Positions 982 to 14,441 of a stretch of 14,799 bases of DNA are shown piece by piece (the first letter of the stretch is position 1; each line of letters opens with the position of its first letter). The position numbers and the translations under genes were made by a program. The notes beneath the pieces are model-generated. The model did no database searches and was not told the origin of the DNA. It worked only from the letters and a program-made list of their open reading frames with translations. The stretch lies in contig SLKW01000418.1 in the NCBI GenBank assembly GCA_007134405.1, forward strand, positions 1 through 14,799, given 5' to 3'. This DNA comes from Paracoccaceae bacterium. Its GTDB lineage: Bacteria; Pseudomonadota; Alphaproteobacteria; Rhodobacterales; Rhodobacteraceae.

Positions 982-1842
982 TCAGATCGCCGCCTTCCGG
1001 CTCTCGTCGAGATAGATCTCGCGCAGGCGGGTGGCCACCGGGCCGGGCTTGCCCTCGCCCAGGGCGCGGCCGTCGATCTCGACCACGGGCATGACGAAGG
1101 CCGAGGCCGAGGTGATGAAGGCCTCGTCGGCCGATTGCGCCTCTTCAACCGTGAAGGGGCGTTCCTCGACCTCCATCTGCGCCTCGCGGGCGAAGCGCAG
1201 GACGGCGGCGCGGGTGATGCCATGCAGGATGTCGGTAGAGAGGCCCCGGGTGATGATCTTGCCTCCCTTGACGATATAGGCGTTGTTCGAGGTCCCCTCG
1301 GTCACCAGTTCGTCCTCGACCATCCAGGCGTCGTCGGCGCCGGCCTTCTTGGCCATCATCTTGCCCATCGACGGGTAGAGCAGCTGCACGGTCTTGATGT
1401 CGCGCCGCCCCCAGCGGATGTCGGGGATCGTGACGACCTTCATGCCGGTCTTCGCCTGCGCGCTGTCGGCCAGGCCCGGCTTCGACTGGGTGAAGAGCAC
1501 GACCGTGGGCGGGGTATCGGCGGGCGGATAGGCGAAGTCGCGGTCGCCCGGGTTGCCGCGGCTGACCTGCAGGTAGATCATGCCGTCTTCCAGGTCGTTG
1601 CGGGCGACCATTTCGCGGTGGATCGCCAGCCAGTCGTCGTCGGAATGCGGGTTGCCGATCTCGAGCGCGTCGAGCGAGCGCTGCAGCCGCGCCAGGTGGC
1701 CGGGGAAGTCGATCAACTTGCCGCCGAGGACCGAGGTCACCTCGTAGACGCCGTCGGCCATCAGGAAGGCGCGGTCGAACACCGACACCTTCGCCTGATC
1801 CTCGGGCAGGTAGTCGCCGTTGACGTAAACGGTGCGGTTCAT
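982..1842 (-). CDS. D-amino-acid transaminase (class IV PLP aminotransferase, DAAT-like)
   Basis: A 286-residue fold-type IV PLP enzyme, the usual length for D-amino-acid transaminases, which swap the amino group between D-amino acids and 2-oxo acids (typically D-Ala/2-oxoglutarate to pyruvate/D-Glu). Compared from memory with the thermophilic Bacillus enzyme, I see DGVYEV with Tyr33, IYLQVSRG (residues 89-96), the PLP lysine at K150 in RDIKT, the PLP-binding Glu182 in TEGTS and the GITR segment at 208-211. The substrate-carboxylate motif is RDF (101-103), where the canonical enzyme has RxH. The start at 1842 is set by a GAGG ribosome site that overlaps the stop codon of dgcA, leaving a 10-base gap, so translation is probably coupled. 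It is the last gene of the dgcN-dgcA operon. A branched-chain or 4-amino-4-deoxychorismate specificity cannot be excluded, but the DAAT motifs fit better. Confidence 0.85.
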   Translation of the reverse strand: MNRTVYVNGDYLPEDQAKVSVFDRAFLMADGVYEVTSVLGGKLIDFPGHLARLQRSLDALEIGNPHSDDDWLAIHREMVARNDLEDGMIYLQVSRGNPGDRDFAYPPADTPPTVVLFTQSKPGLADSAQAKTGMKVVTIPDIRWGRRDIKTVQLLYPSMGKMMAKKAGADDAWMVEDELVTEGTSNNAYIVKGGKIITRGLSTDILHGITRAAVLRFAREAQMEVEERPFTVEEAQSADEAFITSASAFVMPVVEIDGRALGEGKPGPVATRLREIYLDESRKAAI

Positions 1843-1852
1843 GGTCAATCCC

Positions 1853-2815
1853 TCATCCCCAGAGTTCCGGTTCGGGCGGGTGCACGCCCGCCGCGTCGTA
1901 TTTAAGCGCCGGGTCGCGATCCTCGGCCAGCAGGAGCGGCCCGTCGAGGTCGACGACCTTCGCCCCCTGCGCGACCAGAACGGCGGGCGCCATGGCCAGC
2001 GAGGTTCCGACCATGCAGCCGACCATGATGCCAAAGCCCCGGTCCTGCGCTGCGTTGCGCAGTGCCAGCCCCTCGGTCAGCCCGCCCGACTTGTCGAGCT
2101 TGATGTTGATCATGTCGTACTTGCCCGTGAGCGCGGCGAGGCTGGCGCGGTCGTGGCAGGATTCGTCGGCGCAGACGGGCAGCGGGCGATCGATCTCGGC
2201 CAGCATCGCGTCGTCTCCCGCCGGCAGCGGCTGCTCGACCATCTGCACGCCAAGGCGCAGCAGGTGGGGGGCGAGATCGGCATAGACCTCGGCCGTCCAG
2301 CCCTCGTTGGCATCGACGATGATCCGGGCGCTCGGCGCGCCTTCGCGCACCGCCTCCAGCCGGGCCATGTCGTCGGGCGTGCCCAGCTTGATCTTCAGAA
2401 GCGGACGGTGCGCGTTCTTCGCCGCCGCCGCGCGCATCTTCTCGGGCGTGTCGAGCGAGAGCGTGAAGGCCGTCAGCACCGGACCCGGCGCGGGCAGCCC
2501 GGCCAGTTCCCAGACCCGCCGGCCGGCGGCCTTGGCCTCCAGATCCCAGAGCGCGCAGTCGACCGCGTTGCGCGCCGCGCCCGCGGGCAGCGCCGATTGC
2601 AAAGAGGCCCGGGTGATATCGGCGGGCAGCCCCGTGATCTGCGCCGCCACGCTATCGAGCGATTCCCCGTAGCGCGCGTAAGGGACGCATTCGCCGCGCC
2701 CCGTGACCCCGCCGCGGGTTACTTCGACCGTCAGCACCTGCGCCTCGGTGCGCGAGCCGCGCGCGATCGTGAATACCTCGGCCAGGCGGAAGCTTTCGGC
2801 CCGTACGGAAATCAT
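1853..2815 (-). CDS. dgcA: N-acetyl-D-glutamate racemase DgcA / L-Ala-D/L-Glu epimerase family (enolase superfamily)
   Basis: A 320-residue enolase-superfamily enzyme of the muconate-lactonizing subgroup. All catalytic positions of dipeptide epimerases are present with a constant offset of 8 from my recollection of the E. coli enzyme: KIK bases K141 and K143, metal ligands D168 (VDAN), E194 (VEQP) and D217 (ADES), and the opposite-face base K239 (NIKLDK). The C-terminal DxD (D289, D291), which in dipeptide epimerases binds the substrate ammonium, is also kept. Next to dgcN, family knowledge assigns conversion of N-acetyl-D-Glu to N-acetyl-L-Glu in D-glutamate catabolism. L-Ala-D/L-Glu epimerisation is the main alternative. 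The start at 2815 has an AGAGGAAGG ribosome site; a longer upstream frame overlaps dgcN and is rejected. Its stop overlaps the ribosome site of the transaminase gene. Confidence 0.88.
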   Translation of the reverse strand: MISVRAESFRLAEVFTIARGSRTEAQVLTVEVTRGGVTGRGECVPYARYGESLDSVAAQITGLPADITRASLQSALPAGAARNAVDCALWDLEAKAAGRRVWELAGLPAPGPVLTAFTLSLDTPEKMRAAAAKNAHRPLLKIKLGTPDDMARLEAVREGAPSARIIVDANEGWTAEVYADLAPHLLRLGVQMVEQPLPAGDDAMLAEIDRPLPVCADESCHDRASLAALTGKYDMINIKLDKSGGLTEGLALRNAAQDRGFGIMVGCMVGTSLAMAPAVLVAQGAKVVDLDGPLLLAEDRDPALKYDAAGVHPPEPELWG

Positions 2816-2846
2816 CGCAATCCCTTCCTCTGTCGCATCGGCGCGC

Positions 2847-2861
2847 GGGGGCATCGCCCCC
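2847..2861 (-). other. Intercistronic hairpin between dgcN and dgcA
   Basis: A perfect 6-bp GC stem (GGGGGC/GCCCCC) with a 3-base loop fills the 52-base gap between the dgcN stop and the dgcA ribosome site. No T-run follows. It could be an mRNA-stability or attenuation element giving more DgcN than DgcA; that role is inferred. Confidence 0.4.
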
Positions 2862-2867
2862 CTGCCC

Positions 2868-3869
2868 TCAGAGCGCGTCCAGCGCGTCGACCAGCTTGCC
2901 CGCGCCGAAGCGGTAGGGGTCCGTCGCCGGCAGGCCCATGCGCGCCTCGACCTCGGCCAGGTAGCTGCGCGCGGCATCCTCGGCCAGGCCCTGGGTGTTG
3001 ACCGCGATGCCGACCACCTGGCAGCCCGGATTGGCCACCCGCGCCAGTTCGAGGCCCAGATCGCGCAGCGCCTCCAGCGTCGGCAGCTTGTAGTCCGGCA
3101 GGCCGCGCATGTGCGGGCGCGTCGGCTCGTGGCAGAGGATCAGCGCATCGGGCTGGCCGCCATGGATCAGCGCCAGCGTGACGCCCGAATAGCTGACGTG
3201 GAACAGGCTCCCCTGCCCTTCGATCAGATCCCAGTGGTCGGAGTCGTTGTCGGGCGTCAGCCATTCGATGGCGCCGGCCATGAAATCGGCGATCACCGCA
3301 TCGAGCGGCACGCCGTCGCCGGTGATCAGGATGCCCGTCTGGCCGGTCGAGCGGAAGGTGGCCTTCATGCCGCGCTCGCGCATCTCGCGCTCCATGCAGA
3401 GCGCGGTGTACATCTTGCCGACCGAGCAATCGGTGCCGATGGCGAGGCAGCGCTTGCCGGTACGGCGCAGGCCGTTGGCGATGGGGTACTTCACCGAAGG
3501 GATGCGCACGTCATGCAGCTTGCGCCCGGTGGCGCGGGCGACGGCGGCGAGATCCTCCTCGTCGCGCAGGAGGTTGTGCAGGCCCGAGGCGAGGTCGAAG
3601 CCCTCTTCCAGCGCCTGAACCAGCACCTTCTTCCAGGTCTGCGAGATCACGCCGCCGCGGTTCGCCACCCCGATGACCACGGTCTTGACGCCCGCTTCCT
3701 TCGCCTCGGCCAGCGTCATGTCGGGGATGCGCATGTCGGCGCGGCAGCCGTCGAGGCGCAATTGCCCCATTGCGTATTCCGGCCGCCAGTCCTTGATCCC
3801 CTGCGCGACCTTGGCCGCCAGCGGGTCCGGCGCATCGCCGAGGAAAAGAAGATACGGGGTCTCGATCAT
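2868..3869 (-). CDS. dgcN: D-glutamate N-acetyltransferase DgcN (DUF1611 family)
   Basis: A 333-residue protein of the DUF1611 family. Members named DgcN were shown in marine proteobacteria and haloarchaea to acetylate D-glutamate from acetyl-CoA, the first step of a catabolic route completed by DgcA and a deacetylase. Visible marks are the N-terminal LLFLGDAPDPLAAKVAQGI stretch, RADMRIPDM (43-51), VIGVANRGG (65-73), a P-loop-like GTDCSVGK (145-152), RSTGQTGILITGDGVPLDA (173-191), IEGQGSL (216-222) and NTQGL (291-295). It has no GNAT-type acetyl-CoA motif, so the chemistry is known from the family rather than read from the sequence. The start at 3869 is preceded by AAGGAGA at good spacing. 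It is the first gene of the dgcN-dgcA-transaminase operon and is divergent from mcl1. No signal peptide is visible, so a cytoplasmic location is expected. Confidence 0.87.
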   Translation of the reverse strand: MIETPYLLFLGDAPDPLAAKVAQGIKDWRPEYAMGQLRLDGCRADMRIPDMTLAEAKEAGVKTVVIGVANRGGVISQTWKKVLVQALEEGFDLASGLHNLLRDEEDLAAVARATGRKLHDVRIPSVKYPIANGLRRTGKRCLAIGTDCSVGKMYTALCMEREMRERGMKATFRSTGQTGILITGDGVPLDAVIADFMAGAIEWLTPDNDSDHWDLIEGQGSLFHVSYSGVTLALIHGGQPDALILCHEPTRPHMRGLPDYKLPTLEALRDLGLELARVANPGCQVVGIAVNTQGLAEDAARSYLAEVEARMGLPATDPYRFGAGKLVDALDAL

Positions 3870-3975
3870 CGCGCTCTCCTTGCGGCCGGTTGCGGGCGGG
3901 GTGTCGTGGGGTTTCTGCTGCGCGGGCGTGGCAAGTGCAAGACGTATCGCGCCCCGGGCGCGCGGCAAGCCGTCT

Positions 3976-4003
3976 TTCGCAGGTGCAGAAACGGGGTTGC
4001 GAA
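3976..4003. promoter_or_regulatory. Inverted repeat TTCGCA-N16-TGCGAA in the dgcN/mcl1 divergent gap
   Basis: A perfect 6-bp inverted repeat with a 16-base spacer sits in the 197-base gap (3870-4066) between the divergent dgcN and mcl1 start codons. The arms loosely resemble TTGC-rich half-sites of short-chain acyl-CoA regulators known from this group, but the match is weak. The same gap holds a compact CGCGCCC/GGGCGCG palindrome at 3948-3962. Confidence 0.4.
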
Positions 4004-4006
4004 GCG

Positions 4007-4033
4007 GCGCGCAAGTTCATAACCCTTGCGCGC
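4007..4033. promoter_or_regulatory. Perfect 9-bp inverted repeat (operator candidate) upstream of mcl1
   Basis: GCGCGCAAG (4007-4015) and CTTGCGCGC (4025-4033) form a perfect inverted repeat with a 9-base AT-richer spacer, centred 47 bases before the mcl1 start. A weak plus-strand promoter can be drawn through it (TTGCGA at 3997, then 17 bases, then TAACCC at 4020), which would put the repeat over the -10 region, as expected for a repressor site. It could instead fold as a hairpin in the transcript. The regulator is not in the window. Confidence 0.5.
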
Positions 4034-4066
4034 GTCGCCACGCAATATCCTGACCGGAGTCTGCCC

Positions 4067-5026
4067 ATGTCCTTTCGCATCCAGCCCACACCCCCGGCTC
4101 GCCCCAACCGCTGCCAGCTTTTCGGCCCCGGGTCGCGCCCCGCGATCTTCGAGAAGATGGCGGGATCGGCGGCGGATGTGATCAACCTGGACCTGGAGGA
4201 TTCGGTGGCGCCCGACGACAAGGACGCGGCGCGGAAGAATGTCATCGCGGCCACGCATGACGTGGACTGGGGCAAGAAGACGCTGAGCGTGCGGATCAAC
4301 GGGCTCGATACGCCGTTCTGGTACCGCGACGTGGTCGATCTGCTGGAACAGGCGAGCGACCGGCTGGACCAGATCATGATCCCCAAGGTCGGCTGCGCGG
4401 GGGATCTTTACGCCGTCGATGCGCTGGTCACGGCGGTCGAGCGGGCCAAGGGCCGGGCGAAACCCATCGCCTTCGAGGTGATCATCGAATCGGCCGCCGG
4501 CATCGCCCATGTCGAGGAGATCGCCGCGGCCTCGCCCCGGCTGCAGGCGATGTCGCTGGGTGCGGCGGATTTCGCCGCGTCGATGGGGATGGCCACGACC
4601 GGTATCGGCGGAACGCAGGAAAACTACTACATGGTGCGCGAGGGCCAGCAGTACTGGGCCGACCCCTGGCACTGGGCGCAGGCGGCGATCGTCGCGGCCT
4701 GCCGGACGCATGGGGTGCTGCCGGTCGACGGGCCCTTCGGCGATTTCTCGGATAACGACGGGTTCCGGGCGCAGGCGCGGCGGTCGGCGACGCTGGGCAT
4801 GGTCGGCAAATGGGCGATCCATCCCAAGCAGGTGGCGCTGGCCAACGAGGTCTTCACCCCGTCGGAGGCGGCCGTGTCCGAGGCGCGCGAGATCCTTGCC
4901 GCGATGGAGGAGGCCAAGGCCCGCGGCGAGGGCGCGACGGTCTACAAGGGGCGGCTGGTGGACATCGCCTCGATCAAGCAGGCCGAGGTGATCGTGCGGC
5001 AATCGGAAATGATCGAGAACGGCTGA
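4067..5026 (+). CDS. mcl1: L-malyl-CoA / beta-methylmalyl-CoA lyase
   Basis: A 319-residue HpcH/HpaI-type lyase that reversibly cleaves L-malyl-CoA to acetyl-CoA plus glyoxylate and beta-methylmalyl-CoA to propionyl-CoA plus glyoxylate. It serves the ethylmalonyl-CoA pathway for acetate assimilation in Rhodobacterales. It matches my recollection of Rhodobacter sphaeroides Mcl1 over its whole length. CoA/substrate Arg76 lies in SVRIN, the Mg ligands are Glu141 (VIIESAAG) and Asp168 (GAADFA), and the conserved FGPGSRP (19-25), INLDLEDSVAPDDK (39-52), TTGIGGTQENYY (177-188), DPWHWAQAAI (199-208) and GMVGKWAIHPKQ (244-255) are all present. The start at 4067 has GGAG at 4056-4059; an in-frame extension back to 3890 would cross the regulatory gap and is rejected. 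It is transcribed alone, divergent from dgcN, with a hairpin after its stop. Confidence 0.96.
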   Translation: MSFRIQPTPPARPNRCQLFGPGSRPAIFEKMAGSAADVINLDLEDSVAPDDKDAARKNVIAATHDVDWGKKTLSVRINGLDTPFWYRDVVDLLEQASDRLDQIMIPKVGCAGDLYAVDALVTAVERAKGRAKPIAFEVIIESAAGIAHVEEIAAASPRLQAMSLGAADFAASMGMATTGIGGTQENYYMVREGQQYWADPWHWAQAAIVAACRTHGVLPVDGPFGDFSDNDGFRAQARRSATLGMVGKWAIHPKQVALANEVFTPSEAAVSEAREILAAMEEAKARGEGATVYKGRLVDIASIKQAEVIVRQSEMIENG

Positions 5027-5142: not shown

Positions 5143-5550
5143 TCAGCCTTTCTCATCGCTTTCGTACTGCGCGGCGGTCACGGGCTCCATCCAGTCCGTC
5201 GTTTCACCCTCCTGGGCGGCCTGGATGGCAATGTGGCTCATGGCGACAGCGGGGGCGGCGCCGTGCCAGTGTTTCTCGCCGGGTTCGAACCAGACCACGT
5301 CGCCGGGGCCGACCTCCTGCACCGGTCCGCCCTCGCGCTGGACGCGGCCCAGGCCGGCGGTGATGATGAGCGTCTGGCCCAGGCGATGCGTGTGCCAGTT
5401 GGTGCGCGCGCCGGGCTCGAACGTGACCCAGAGACCGGCGGGGCGGCCGGGGGTGTCGGCGGCCATCAGCGGGTCGAGGCGGACGGTGCCGGTGAAGTAT
5501 TCGGCCGGGCCGCTGCGGGCGGGGCGGGTTCCGTTGCGGGTGATTTCCAT
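5143..5550 (-). CDS. Small Mn-cupin, (R)-hydroxynitrile-lyase-like family
   Basis: A 135-residue single-domain cupin. It strongly recalls the acidobacterial manganese cupins (Granulicella type) that cleave or form mandelonitrile: [15 protein letters not shown] near residues 14-28, [18 protein letters not shown] (45-61), [19 protein letters not shown] (70-88) and GEKHWHGA (91-98). The presumed metal ligands H53, H55, Q59 and H94 fall at the numbering I recall for that family. Some relatives are annotated only as cupin proteins or grouped with carboxymuconolactone-decarboxylase-like cupins, and the natural substrate of most members is unknown, so cyanohydrin activity is a biochemical potential rather than a proven role. 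The start at 5550 has a strong AGGAGG site 6-7 bases upstream; a longer frame to 5937 runs into pgi and is rejected. No signal peptide is visible. Confidence 0.85.
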
Positions 5551-9789: not shown

Positions 9790-9909
9790 TTTCGCTTGCG
9801 GCTCAGCGCGCGCGCGATTTTCTTTCAGGCTTGAAATGAAAACTTGCATGCGCATCGGGACGCGGCCAGTATGCTTCCTACAACAACGAGACTCGTAGGG
9901 AGGAAGGCA

Positions 9910-11052
9910 ATGACTTACGCAAAGCGCGTGGCCGTCGGACTGGCGGCGCTGGCGTTCGGGGCGCAGGGCGCCCTGGCGCAGGATGTGACGGTCGGGATGA
10001 TCACCACCCTGTCGGGTGGCGGGGCCGGGTTGGGGGTCGATGTCCGGGACGGGTTCCAGCTGGCGCTGAGGAAAGCCGGCAACGAGAACCTGCGCCTGGT
10101 GGTCGAGGATGACGCACAGCGCCCGGAACTGGCCGTGCAGATCGCCGAGCGGATGATCCAGTCGGAGCGTGCGCAGATCCTGACAGGCATCATCTGGTCG
10201 AACCTGGCGATGGCCGTCGTGCCCTCGACCGTGGCGCAGGGCGTGTTCTACATCTCGCCGAATGCCGGGCCCTCGGCCCTGGCGGGCGCGAATTGTCATC
10301 AGGACTATTTCAACGCCGCCTGGCAGAACGACATGCTGCACGAGGCCGCGGGTCAGCACGCCAATGAGCTGGGCTATGAGAACGCCTTCATCATGGCGCC
10401 GAACTACCCGGCTGGAACGGACGCGCTGACCGGGTTCAAACGCTTTTTCGAGGGCGAGCTGGCCGGGGAGCTTTATACCCAGGTCGGCCAGACCGACTAT
10501 GCCGCCGAGATCGCGCAGATCCGCGCCTCGGGCGCGGACAGCATCTTCATCTTCCTGCCCGGCGGCATGGGGATTTCCTTCATGCGGCAGTACGAGCAGT
10601 CGGGCGTCGATCTGCCGATCATCTCGGCGGGCTTCTCGTTCGACCAGGATGTTCTGCCCGCCATGGGTTCGGCGGCGCTTGGCGTGATCAACACCAGCCA
10701 ATGGTCGCCCGATCTGGACAACGAGGCGAACGTGGCCTTCGTCGAGGCGTTCCGCGAGGAATACGGCCGCATCCCGTCGCTCTACGCGAGCCAGGGCTTC
10801 GATACCGCGAACCTGATCCTGTCGGCGATGGACGCGGCCGACATCTCGGACCGCGACGCGTTCCGCGAGGCGCTGAAGGCCGCCGATTTCGACTCGGTCC
10901 GGGGGGAGTTCCGGTTTGCCGACAACCATCATCCCATCCAGACCGTCTATGTCCGCGAAGTGGTCGAGAAAGATGGCGAACTGACCAACGAGATCATCGG
11001 CACCGCCTTTGAGGAGCATCAGGACGTCTACGGCGACGATTGCAGCATGTAA
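9910..11052 (+). CDS. ABC transporter substrate-binding protein, branched-chain/hydrophobic amino acid (HAAT) class
   Basis: A 380-residue periplasmic type I binding protein. A Sec signal peptide is clear: basic start MTYAKR, hydrophobic core, and ALA cleavage at residue 23 before QDVTVG. The mature part opens VGMITTLSGGGAGLGVDVRDGFQLAL, typical of the LivJ/LivK superfamily. IWSNLAMAVVP (95-105), ISPNAGPSALAG (115-126), the WQND motif at 138-141 and FIFLPGGMG (213-221) recall members that bind aromatic or other carboxylates rather than leucine, but the ligand cannot be named. Two cysteines (C129 and C378) are well placed for a disulfide in the periplasm. The start at 9910 has a very strong GGGAGGAAGG site. 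It heads the five-gene uptake operon and is separated from the permease gene by a 64-base gap with a strong hairpin. Confidence 0.93.
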   Translation: MTYAKRVAVGLAALAFGAQGALAQDVTVGMITTLSGGGAGLGVDVRDGFQLALRKAGNENLRLVVEDDAQRPELAVQIAERMIQSERAQILTGIIWSNLAMAVVPSTVAQGVFYISPNAGPSALAGANCHQDYFNAAWQNDMLHEAAGQHANELGYENAFIMAPNYPAGTDALTGFKRFFEGELAGELYTQVGQTDYAAEIAQIRASGADSIFIFLPGGMGISFMRQYEQSGVDLPIISAGFSFDQDVLPAMGSAALGVINTSQWSPDLDNEANVAFVEAFREEYGRIPSLYASQGFDTANLILSAMDAADISDRDAFREALKAADFDSVRGEFRFADNHHPIQTVYVREVVEKDGELTNEIIGTAFEEHQDVYGDDCSM

Positions 11053-11065
11053 GGCGAACCCTGCC

Positions 11066-11093
11066 GCGGCGCGCCGCTTCTGATGCGCGCCGC
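11066..11093 (+). other. Strong intercistronic hairpin between binding-protein and permease genes
   Basis: A perfect 9-bp GC stem (GCGGCGCGC against GCGCGCCGC) with a 10-base loop fills most of the 64-base gap. No T-run follows. In many ABC operons such a structure after the binding-protein gene protects its mRNA and lowers expression of the membrane components; that role here is inferred. Confidence 0.55.
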
Positions 11094-11116
11094 AGTGTTC
11101 CGGCGAAAGTTTCATC

Positions 11117-12034
11117 ATGAGCGTGGCACTCTTTGCAGAGCAGCTCCTGAACGGCGTGCAGTTCGGGCTGATGCTGTTCCTGATGGCGGCTGGCCTGACG
11201 CTGGTCTTCGGCGTCATGGGGCTGATCAACCTTGCCCATGGCTCGCTCTACATGATCGGGGCGTTCGTCTGCGCGGCGGCGGCGGCGGCCTTCGGCAGTT
11301 TCTGGCTTGGGCTGATCGCCGGGCTCGCCGCGGCGGCCGCGGCCGGGGCACTGATCGAGCTTACGGTGATCCGACGACTTTACGACCGCGACCATCTCGA
11401 CCAGGTGCTGGCGACCTTCGCGCTGATCCTGATCCTGTCGGAAGGCGTGCGCATGATTTTCGGCCCCTTCCCGCTCTATCTGTCGGTGCCGGATCTGCTG
11501 CGCGGCACGGTCGATCTGGGCATCACGCGGTACTCGCTCTATCGGCTGGCGCTGATCGGAATCGGGATCGCGGTGGCGATCGGGCTGTGGCTGCTCATCG
11601 CCAAGACGCGGCTGGGCATCCAGATCCGCGCCGGCGAATCCGACCGCGAGATGATCGCCGCGCTGGGAGTGAACATCCGCTGGCTCTATACGGTCGTCTT
11701 CGCGCTGGGGGCGGCCCTTGCCGGCATGGCCGGGGCACTGGTGGGCGCGATCCAGTCGGTACAGGTGGGGATGGGCGAGCCAGTGCTGATCCTCGCTTTC
11801 GTGGTCATCGTCATCGGCGGTATCGGCTCGATCAAGGGGGCGATGGTCGGTGCGCTTCTGGTTGGCGTGATCGACACGATGGGGCGGTTTCTGCTGCCGC
11901 GCATCTTCGCGGCGTTTCTGGACCCGGCACAGGCCATGGGCGTCGGTGCGGCGCTGGCCTCGATGCTGATCTATCTGCTGATGGCGCTGGTCCTGATCCT
12001 GCGCCCCCGAGGATTGTTCCCCGCCCATGGCTGA
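11117..12034 (+). CDS. Branched-chain amino acid-type ABC permease, LivH family
   Basis: A 305-residue inner-membrane permease of the LivH type, nearly all hydrophobic with about eight membrane segments. It shows the family N-terminus LNGVQFGLMLFLMAAGLTLVFGVMGLINLAHGSLYM (11-46), the cytoplasmic coupling loop KTRLGIQIRAGESDREMIAALGVN (163-186) and the late VIVIGGIGSIKGAMVGALL stretch (230-248). The ATG at 11117 has only a weak purine-rich site, which fits lower expression than the binding protein. Its stop overlaps the next gene by 8 bases. The LivM-like partner encoded next would complete the heterodimeric channel. Confidence 0.94.
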   Translation: MSVALFAEQLLNGVQFGLMLFLMAAGLTLVFGVMGLINLAHGSLYMIGAFVCAAAAAAFGSFWLGLIAGLAAAAAAGALIELTVIRRLYDRDHLDQVLATFALILILSEGVRMIFGPFPLYLSVPDLLRGTVDLGITRYSLYRLALIGIGIAVAIGLWLLIAKTRLGIQIRAGESDREMIAALGVNIRWLYTVVFALGAALAGMAGALVGAIQSVQVGMGEPVLILAFVVIVIGGIGSIKGAMVGALLVGVIDTMGRFLLPRIFAAFLDPAQAMGVGAALASMLIYLLMALVLILRPRGLFPAHG

Positions 12035-13007
12035 AATGCGCAGAGAATGGATCGTCAACGCGGTGCTGGCAATGGCGCTGCTGATCGTCCCCTTGGTGGC
12101 ACTGTGGATCAACGAGCCCTTCTACGTCACGCTCGCCACCCGCGTCGCCATCCTGGCGCTGGCCGGCGTCGGGCTGAACCTGGCGCTGGGGCTCGGCGGC
12201 ATGGTCTCGTTCGGGCATGCGGCCTATTTCGGGCTGGGCGGGTATGTCGCGGGGATCATGGCGCATCACGCCTTCACCGGCCTGCCGATGTGGATCGGGG
12301 TGACCGGCAGCAACCAGATGCTCTGGATCTGGCTGTGGGCGGCGCTGCTGTCGGGGTTTCTGGCGCTGATCATCGGCGCGCTGAGCCTGCGCACGAGCGG
12401 AATTTTCTTCATCATGATCACGCTCGCCTTCGCGCAGATGATCTTCTACTTCACGCTGTCCTGGCCCGCCTATGGGGGCGAGGACGGGTTGCCGATCTTC
12501 GTGCGCAACCAGTTTCCGGGGCTGAACACGATGCGGCCCTGGGACATGTTCATCCTGTCCTACGGCGTGCTGATGCTGGCGCTGGTCTTCTTCGCCATGC
12601 TGCGGGCGGCGCGGTTCGGCGCGGCGCTGATGGCGATCCGGCAGAACCCGGACCGCGCGGCGGCGGTGGGCATCTCGCCCTTCGGCGTGAAGCTGGCGGC
12701 CTTCGTGCTGTCGGGGATGATCACCGGGCTTGCCGGCGCGATGATGGCGGATCTGACGCGCTTCGTCAGCCCCGCGATGATCGCGTGGCAGATGTCAGGC
12801 GAGCTGATCGTGATCATCATCCTGGGCGGGGTGGGACGCCTTTTCGGACCGGTGGCGGGGGCGGCGATCCTGGTCGCCTTCGAGGTGATCTTCGGCGGCA
12901 TCACCGAACACTGGCAGTTCTTCCTAGGGCTCATCCTGCTGGGTGTGGTGCTGTTTGCCCGTGGCGGTCTGATCGGACTTCTGGCCGGGAGGGCGCGTCA
13001 TGGCTGA
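12027..13007 (+). CDS. Branched-chain amino acid-type ABC permease, LivM family
   Basis: A 326-residue second permease. It has the LivM hallmarks GVGLNLALGLGGMVSFGHAAYFGLGGY (47-73), ALSLRTSGIFFIMITLAFAQM (118-138) and the ATPase-contacting loop FGAALMAIRQNPDRAAAVGI (197-216), with multiple membrane helices and a cytoplasmic C-terminus. The ATG at 12027 lies inside the end of the upstream permease gene (8-base overlap), and its own stop overlaps the following ATPase gene by 8 bases, so the whole set is translationally coupled. The length is normal for the family and no motif appears broken. Confidence 0.94.
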   Translation: MAEMRREWIVNAVLAMALLIVPLVALWINEPFYVTLATRVAILALAGVGLNLALGLGGMVSFGHAAYFGLGGYVAGIMAHHAFTGLPMWIGVTGSNQMLWIWLWAALLSGFLALIIGALSLRTSGIFFIMITLAFAQMIFYFTLSWPAYGGEDGLPIFVRNQFPGLNTMRPWDMFILSYGVLMLALVFFAMLRAARFGAALMAIRQNPDRAAAVGISPFGVKLAAFVLSGMITGLAGAMMADLTRFVSPAMIAWQMSGELIVIIILGGVGRLFGPVAGAAILVAFEVIFGGITEHWQFFLGLILLGVVLFARGGLIGLLAGRARHG

Positions 13008-13751
13008 GCCGGTTCTGGACCTGCGCGGCGTGAGCAAGAGCTTCGGCGCCCTGCGCGCAACCGACAACGTGTCGCTGACATTGAAGCCGGGCGAGATCCA
13101 CGCGCTGATCGGTCCGAACGGAGCGGGCAAGTCGACGCTGATGGCGCTGATCTCGGGCAAGCTGCCGCCGGATTCGGGCAGCATCCACTTCCGCGGGCAG
13201 GACATCTCGCGTCTGTCTGTGGCGCAGCGCGCGCGGCTGGGCCTGGGGCGCAGCTTCCAGATCTCGTCGCTGATCCCGGAATACTCGGCGCGGCGCAACG
13301 TGATGCTGGCGCTGCAGGCGCGGCAGGGGCATCCCTACAGGTTCCTGTGGCCGGTGATGCGCGACCGCGGCCTGATGGACCCGGCGCGCGAGGTGCTGCG
13401 CCGCGTCGGGCTCGAGGGCCGCGCCAGCGTGCCGTCGGCCGAGCTGTCGCATGGCGAACGGCGGCTTCTGGAAATTGCCGTGGCGCTCGCCCTGGAGCCG
13501 CGGGCCTTCCTTCTCGACGAGCCGATGGCGGGGATGGGCACGGACGGCGCCCGGCGGCTGACCGCGTTTCTGGACAAGCTGCGCGCCGAGGCCCCGATCC
13601 TGCTGGTCGAGCACGACATGGACGCCGTCTTCGCCCTGGCCGACCGCGTCTCGGTGCTGGCCGGCGGGCGGATCATTGCCGCAGGCCCCGTGGCCGAGAT
13701 CCGCGCCAATGCCGAGGTCCGGCGCGCCTATCTGGGCGAGGAGGAAGGCGC

Positions 13752-13755
<4 letters not shown>
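13000..13755 (+). CDS. HAAT-type ABC transporter ATPase, LivG family
   Basis: A 251-residue ATP-binding subunit. Walker A GPNGAGKST is at 38-46, the Q-loop region at GRSFQISSLIPEYSARRNV (83-101), the signature LSHGERR at 149-155 (a common LivG variant of LSGGQ), Walker B AFLLDEP at 169-175 and the switch histidine His205 in VEHDMD. The insert after the Q-loop (RQGHPYRFLWPVMRD) and the EYLGEEE-like tail (RRAYLGEEEGA) are typical of LivG. It starts within the LivM gene and ends with the 4-base GTGA overlap that starts the LivF gene. It powers import together with the next gene product as a heterodimer. Confidence 0.95.

Positions 13756-14441
<686 letters not shown>

Follow-up and report, generated by a model that had tools for sequence, protein, structure and literature searches.

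We analyzed a DNA stretch of 14,799 nucleotides (hereafter the window), which is the whole of contig C59 (SLKW01000418.1) in a draft genome of 2.83 Mb and 83% completeness from a Paracoccaceae bacterium (GCA_007134405.1) and which carries three adjoining genes of D-amino-acid metabolism on its minus strand. The first, dgcN (positions 3869-2868), encodes a 333-residue homologue of D-glutamate N-acetyltransferase made up of a DUF1611_N domain and a P-loop DUF1611_C domain. The second, dgcA (2815-1853), encodes a 320-residue enolase-superfamily protein homologous to N-acyl-D-glutamate racemase and L-Ala-D/L-Glu epimerase, and the third (1842-982) encodes a 286-residue homologue of fold-type IV, pyridoxal 5'-phosphate-dependent D-amino-acid transaminase (DAAT). 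All three open reading frames (ORFs) are intact, with gaps of 52 nt between dgcN and dgcA and 10 nt between dgcA and the DAAT gene, just as an initial annotation made from the sequence had described them. An intergenic region (3870-4066; no strand assigned) separates dgcN from a divergent gene on the plus strand (4067-5026) for a CitE / HpcH-HpaI-type lyase (PF03328, 138.8 bits). Relatives have the same intergenic slot without dgcN or without dgcNA, and the lyase gene marks the locus there; it serves us as a locus marker, with no claim that it belongs to the pathway.

The identities that the initial annotation gave to the first two proteins agree with curated profiles. DgcN passes the NF041892 equivalog model (559.1 bits; NCBIfam cut-off 480), carries both DUF1611 domains (PF07755 and PF17396) and has PDB chain 7xrj_A as its best solved-structure match (591 bits over 332 residues). 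DgcA passes the NF042940 equivalog model (522.5 bits; cut-off 400), and its best solved-structure match is 4gfi. From its sequence and alignment columns, DgcA holds the KIK motif, D168, E194, D217 and K239, which we take to be enolase-superfamily residues, and the catalytic set is complete, as had been stated. Adjacent genes of this kind form the DgcN-DgcA D-glutamate pathway reportedly described by Yu et al. in 2023 (ISME J 17:537). The window resembles that system in that both genes are adjacent and pass their profile cut-offs; it differs in that the DAAT gene follows, and in the relatives dgcN can be missing independently of dgcA and the DAAT gene.

The third protein had been called DAAT-like, a label that stands at the level of the subfamily and fails at that of the equivalog and the canonical motif. 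It passes the NF005209 subfamily model (368.7 bits; cut-off 320) and falls short of the TIGR01121 DAAT equivalog (224.2 vs 277.45). Its best solved-structure match is 9pxs, its catalytic K150 is invariant in 75/75 aligned DAATs, and the nearest named relative by DAAT, among the matches listed, is Pararhodobacter sp. SW119 (89%). The motif table in PMC10003956 lists F26, Y31, [VA]33, [KRPT]35, xYxQ and RxH as canonical in 1daa numbering. When positions were mapped by eye from the alignment, the window protein fitted this table at Y33, V35, YxQ and R101 and differed from it at M28, S37 and F103. Compared with the canonical Bacillus-type DAAT (PDB 1daa), it thus shares Y33, V35, YxQ, R101 and the catalytic K150, whereas it has F103 for H100 and Ser for K35 and misses TIGR01121. 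Met replaces F26 in 59/75 DAATs.

The initial annotation had proposed a survey of how often a DAAT gene accompanies dgcNA, with random occurrence as the outcome that would speak against a coupling. We ran this survey in the GTDB family of the window, taken as Rhodobacteraceae from its named loci, using 199 genomes that, with two exceptions, represent different genera and in which DAAT was sought at E ≤ 1e-70 and dgcN at 1e-100. Positions were compared in the 123 genomes with coordinates for both genes (from 150 listed for each; nearly all different genera). In 115 of the 123, the DAAT gene follows dgcN on its strand within 4.5 kb, and the distance between them leaves room for dgcA alone in 89 genomes and for more in 26. 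In the other eight genomes the two genes are on different contigs (five), 63 kb apart (one), divergent (one) or separated by 5.7 kb with DAAT still downstream (one). In addition, 86 dgcN loci were fetched, most with ~7 kb on each side. Of the 42 from the family, 39 show DAAT following dgcN in the same orientation. The remaining three are G323, where the contig ends, G022, whose dgcA and DAAT are found on another contig, and G035, in which DAAT is a divergent neighbour. The 44 loci from outside the family, which belong to 42 genomes, include some copies that score below the DgcN cut-off. There the window DAAT served as query at 1e-8 over ~7 kb, a search that a diverged DAAT could escape, and a DAAT gene was found downstream of dgcN in 2/44 loci (L073 and L078; same phylum, another class). 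The triad is also present in 55 of 80 named loci, among them L269 of Cereibacter johrii; the 80 are the best of at least 582 confirmed relatives and are biased to near kin. Three of them end too near a contig edge to be judged: L272 and L276, entered in the counts as '-AT', and L330, entered as 'T only'; the DAAT tree omits all three.

The triad is not due to chance, and its gene order recurs far above chance. Long-standing neighbourhood of dgcNA and DAAT with no shared function strikes us as quite improbable, in spite of two observations that would suit it: the CitE-like gene is likewise conserved there with no obvious link (at 68/80 named loci, and within the fetched stretch at 26/86 dgcN loci, each of these being one of the 42 from the family), and some genomes have insertions between dgcA and DAAT, a few of them on the opposite strand. 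The adjacency in 115/123 genomes argues otherwise, while FtsY, a distal neighbour, is common to just 2/86 loci (near relatives; the query was a piece of FtsY in imperfect translation), and so do the triad in two distant genomes and the persistence of dgcA beside DAAT after loss of dgcN (below). The esterase neighbour query in the same 86-locus search was an out-of-frame translation.

The three genes are retained to different degrees. A DAAT homologue occurs in 199/199 family genomes and dgcN in 165/199. When the 34 genomes missing dgcN were rechecked by profile, 31 had no DgcN at E ≤ 1e-3; the remaining three hold a divergent DgcN-DgcA pair (G445), a distant DUF1611 protein (G366) and a broken dgcN with two ends (G523). 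The pair in G445 (G445:C8:65232-67296) scores 226 and 201 bits, below both cut-offs, and has the order dgcA-dgcN. Of the 34 dgcN-less genera, 19 retain a DgcA that passes its cut-off, and in all 19 DAAT lies directly downstream (gap at most ~300 nt). Among 25 dgcN-less loci that were fetched, 16 have dgcA, six have the CitE-like gene directly before DAAT, one (G403) has a dgcA remnant and two have neither neighbour. All nine Paracoccus loci have DAAT with neither dgcN nor dgcA, eight of them with the CitE-like gene adjoining. The order of retention is DAAT > dgcA > dgcN.

The remnants of dgcN in G523 and of dgcA in G403 indicate that the genes were lost in those two genomes, and in UBA6197 (L290) a stretch at the slot resembles, by eye, the C-terminal end of dgcN. 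The DAAT tree calls for at least 11 changes in the state of dgcN and at least five in that of dgcA, counts that come with weak branch support (12/77 inner branches starred) and fit gain and loss alike. Because the CitE-like gene marks the site, repeated loss of dgcN or dgcNA from one slot is the simplest reading. In two rearranged genomes, G022 and G391, dgcA stays with DAAT and apart from dgcN.

We favor, with moderate confidence, the interpretation that these genes make up a conserved Rhodobacteraceae operon for the clearance of D-amino acids, most likely peptidoglycan-derived ones, with DgcA and DAAT as its core. What our analysis shows is the profile identity, the order and the retention of the genes; every substrate, the co-transcription and the direction of flux are inferred. 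DAAT would deaminate D-alanine and probably further D-amino acids, passing the amino group to a 2-oxo acid, and D-glutamate would form if the acceptor is 2-oxoglutarate. Where it is kept, DgcN would acetylate free D-glutamate to N-acetyl-D-glutamate, which DgcA would epimerise to the L form, possibly together with the dipeptide L-Ala-D-Glu. N-acetyl-L-glutamate would then pass into arginine synthesis or the L-glutamate pool. DAAT is reportedly the enzyme of D-alanine catabolism in Pseudoalteromonas CF6-2 (Yu et al. 2022), and the likeness lies in that catabolic role; here the gene is linked to dgcNA. The initial annotation had found no N-acetyl-L-glutamate deacetylase and concluded that one must act from elsewhere. 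The first part agrees with our profile scan, in which no deacetylase was detected among the window proteins scanned (a subset of the window ORFs). The second does not follow: N-acetyl-L-glutamate is an arginine precursor and ArgJ is present in 24/24 family genomes examined, the window's genome included, and no deacetylase of its own is therefore strictly needed by the pathway. Outside support comes from Rhodobacteraceae strain LCG007, described in PMC11747546 as having genes for DAAT, EC 2.3.1.312 and EC 5.1.1.25 and as growing on D-glutamate and D-alanine.

Several observations weigh against the clearance operon or against a DgcA-DAAT core. In DAAT, Phe stands in place of H100 (F103) in 75/75 aligned proteins and Ser at position 37 in place of K35 in 71/75, and because F103 and Ser37 depart from the canon, use of D-glutamate or 2-oxoglutarate by this DAAT is uncertain. 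Genome G446 keeps dgcN with dgcA and has DAAT on another contig, and in G035 the pair dgcN-dgcA persists beside a divergent DAAT gene. At least one other gene stands between dgcA and DAAT in 26/123 genomes. By eye, an ORF on the opposite strand intervenes in L061 and L063, where it is the largest and most plausible gene, and in L126, where a second gene accompanies it; DAAT cannot there be part of one simple transcript with dgcNA, so co-transcription cannot be general. No AmpG match was found at E ≤ 1e-20 in 40 family genomes, with a control search that was positive in E. coli, Caulobacter and Bacteroides. AmpG is the canonical muropeptide importer, and the lack of a match in all 40 disfavours classical murein recycling; AmpG was accordingly dropped as support for such recycling and counts against it. 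Finally, the ratio of nonsynonymous to synonymous substitution rates (dN/dS) of DgcA is 0.12-0.44 in six pairs with a dgcN-less member and 0.03-0.15 in ten pairs where both members have dgcN, values read with the caveats that dS was often saturated and that DAAT dN/dS was raised too in several of the same pairs. Some dgcN-less lineages may thus have relaxed or altered constraint on DgcA. The closest pair counts in favour of the interpretation: Pseudorhodobacter ferrugineus, whose locus has no dgcN, and P. wandonensis, which carries the triad, have DgcA proteins 93% identical, with dN/dS of 0.058 for DgcA, 0.032 for CitE and 0.050 for DAAT. The catalytic motifs and D289-x-D291 (DxD) are intact in 16/16 aligned DgcA proteins from dgcN-less genomes, a group from which six genomes with dgcN elsewhere or on another contig were left out.

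The genes between dgcA and DAAT were considered as further pathway enzymes and rejected as such, since they differ among genomes; by eye, they resemble a phosphoesterase, a depolymerase-like esterase, a DMT-like membrane protein and an exonuclease. The phosphoesterase-like gene was seen by eye between dgcA and DAAT in L121-L125, which are members of the window's genus, and in L075 and L084.

The initial annotation had read the locus as a D-glutamate pathway to which a transaminase was added, and this reading was not borne out by retention, with DAAT in every family genome, dgcN in fewer, and dgcA, where it outlasts dgcN, staying with DAAT (19/19). In its fuller form, in which the pathway consists of dgcNA and DAAT is an accessory channelling other D-amino acids into D-glutamate, it appears unlikely to us. 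The order of the triad, the 89/123 genomes with room for dgcA alone, the whole triad in the two distant genomes L073 and L078, and the separation of DAAT from dgcN-dgcA in G446 would all be expected of such a unit. It accounts poorly for the 34 genomes that keep DAAT without dgcN and for dgcA accompanying DAAT rather than dgcN in G022 and G391. In addition, K35, which PMC10003956 proposes to hold the gamma-carboxylate of 2-oxoglutarate, is the residue that Ser replaces in 71/75 DAATs.

The substrate of DgcA bears directly on the interpretation. The window DgcA lies just under the cut-off of the PRK15129 L-Ala-D/L-Glu epimerase model (NF011708; 339.9 vs 343). In the other direction, YcjG of E. 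coli passes the DgcA model with 424.1 bits (cut-off 400) and has 49% identity to the window DgcA, and it shares all 24 columns that are invariant across 98 DgcA proteins, D289 and D291 included; no residue separating N-acetyl-D-glutamate enzymes from L-Ala-D-Glu enzymes was found among these 24 columns. The DxD motif was tried as a marker of epimerase versus racemase and rejected, being invariant in all 98 homologues, dgcN-linked DgcA among them. The two proteins differ in setting: a DgcN control search gave no match in E. coli, and ycjG adjoins mpaA and lies near mppA, which are murein-peptide genes. Because YcjG passes the DgcA model with 49% identity and the same 24 columns, the name DgcA does not settle the substrate.

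These likenesses lend weight to an alternative in which DgcA is mainly an L-Ala-D/L-Glu epimerase for the salvage of peptidoglycan peptides, DAAT removes D-alanine and DgcN is optional; the DgcA-DAAT core would then deal with both D residues of the stem peptide. This alternative overlaps with the clearance operon and differs from it in the main substrate of DgcA; we regard it as possible, if on the unlikely side. Besides the YcjG match and the company of ycjG, whose product, as reviewed in PMC5808125, epimerises L-Ala-D/L-Glu, the persistence of dgcA without dgcN in 19/34 genera is in keeping with it. It is weakened by the 0/40 result for AmpG, by the window DgcA falling under the PRK15129 cut-off and by the tie of dgcA to dgcN outside the family, where 40/44 dgcN loci have dgcA immediately downstream and one more has it 3.5 kb upstream, and the DxD motif, invariant in dgcN-linked DgcA too, does not separate the two functions.

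DAAT could also bear on the making of cell-wall D-glutamate. A MurI (glutamate racemase) match at E ≤ 1e-10 was obtained in 190/199 family genomes, the window's genome included, of which 56 passed the curated cut-off. Neither profile nor single-sequence searches gave a MurI match in nine genera (G018, G032, G407, G411, G420, G445, G462, G464 and G257), whose genomes are at least 95% complete; all nine have DAAT, and eight pass the dgcN threshold. PF01177, the wider racemase family, has strong matches in eight of the nine, where another racemase is possible; in G411 the PF01177 search at E ≤ 1e-5 was negative. This search is a weak test, because G431, in which MurI was found by sequence, also escaped it. 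The idea that DAAT is the family's maker of cell-wall D-glutamate, replacing glutamate racemase, with dgcNA as an overflow, is extremely unlikely in our view. It draws on the nine MurI-less genera, all with DAAT, on G411, which lacks a PF01177 match as well, and on PMC5808125, which gives DAAT as one of two usual sources of D-glutamate. The MurI matches in 190/199 restrict it to nine genera at most, eight of which may have another racemase, and no sequence signature was found in the three MurI-less DAATs tested. DAAT as a general replacement for glutamate racemase was rejected on the 190/199 count.

A bolder version of the clearance operon would make DgcA and DAAT, in place of DgcN and DgcA, the indivisible pair, together clearing both D residues of the stem peptide through a bifunctional DgcA that acts on N-acetyl-D-glutamate and on L-Ala-D-Glu and through removal of D-alanine by DAAT, with DgcN optional and lost many times; in MurI-less genera the operon would then both make (DAAT) and destroy (DgcN/DgcA) wall D-glutamate. 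We offer this as a speculative and rather doubtful extension.

Rhodobacteraceae have an important place among the consumers of organic nitrogen, and cell-wall D-amino acids make up a slow-turning part of this nitrogen. If the interpretation as a clearance operon is true, counts of dgcN in metagenomes understate the D-amino-acid capacity of the family, and some of the genes that the current model names DgcA may be dipeptide epimerases, as YcjG passes it. The separate roles could be tested directly in species with dgcA-DAAT and no dgcN and in the genera with no recognisable MurI. Neither the DgcN-DgcA pathway nor DAAT is new in itself. A link between DAAT and dgcNA was not found in the literature searched, which did not cover the original pathway and D-alanine papers; as far as we have seen, the novelty lies in the coupling across the family, in the retention order DAAT > dgcA > dgcN and in the overlap between the DgcA model and YcjG.

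Short sequences recur upstream of dgcN. TTCTTCG/CGAAGAA is present in 18/46 dgcN-bearing loci (shuffle mean 0.7) and TTGCGCAA in 9/46 (shuffle mean 0.1), where the shuffles were mononucleotide and the loci (L264-L343) are mutually related. Neither occurs in the 15 dgcN-less loci (0/15), whose regions are shorter, and the window itself has no TTCTTCG in 3870-4066. The two motifs are possibly an operator and are put forward as candidates. On the CitE side, a stretch resembling AAATTGCGC...GCAAG...TTTTGCAGGTGCAGCA recurs by eye across L264-L343; because it is present in loci with and without dgcN, it probably belongs to the CitE-like gene itself.

The rest of the window holds other genes. An FtsY/SRP54-type GTPase lies at the contig end (1-797), and a cupin protein (5143-5550) scores 179.5 bits against an (R)-mandelonitrile lyase NCBIfam model with a cut-off of 140. 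In 9844-14441, a substrate-binding protein with weak matches of urea and branched-chain amino acid type, below their cut-offs, is followed on the same strand by permease- and ATPase-like ORFs (by eye), an arrangement that resembles an ATP-binding cassette uptake operon with an unassigned substrate.

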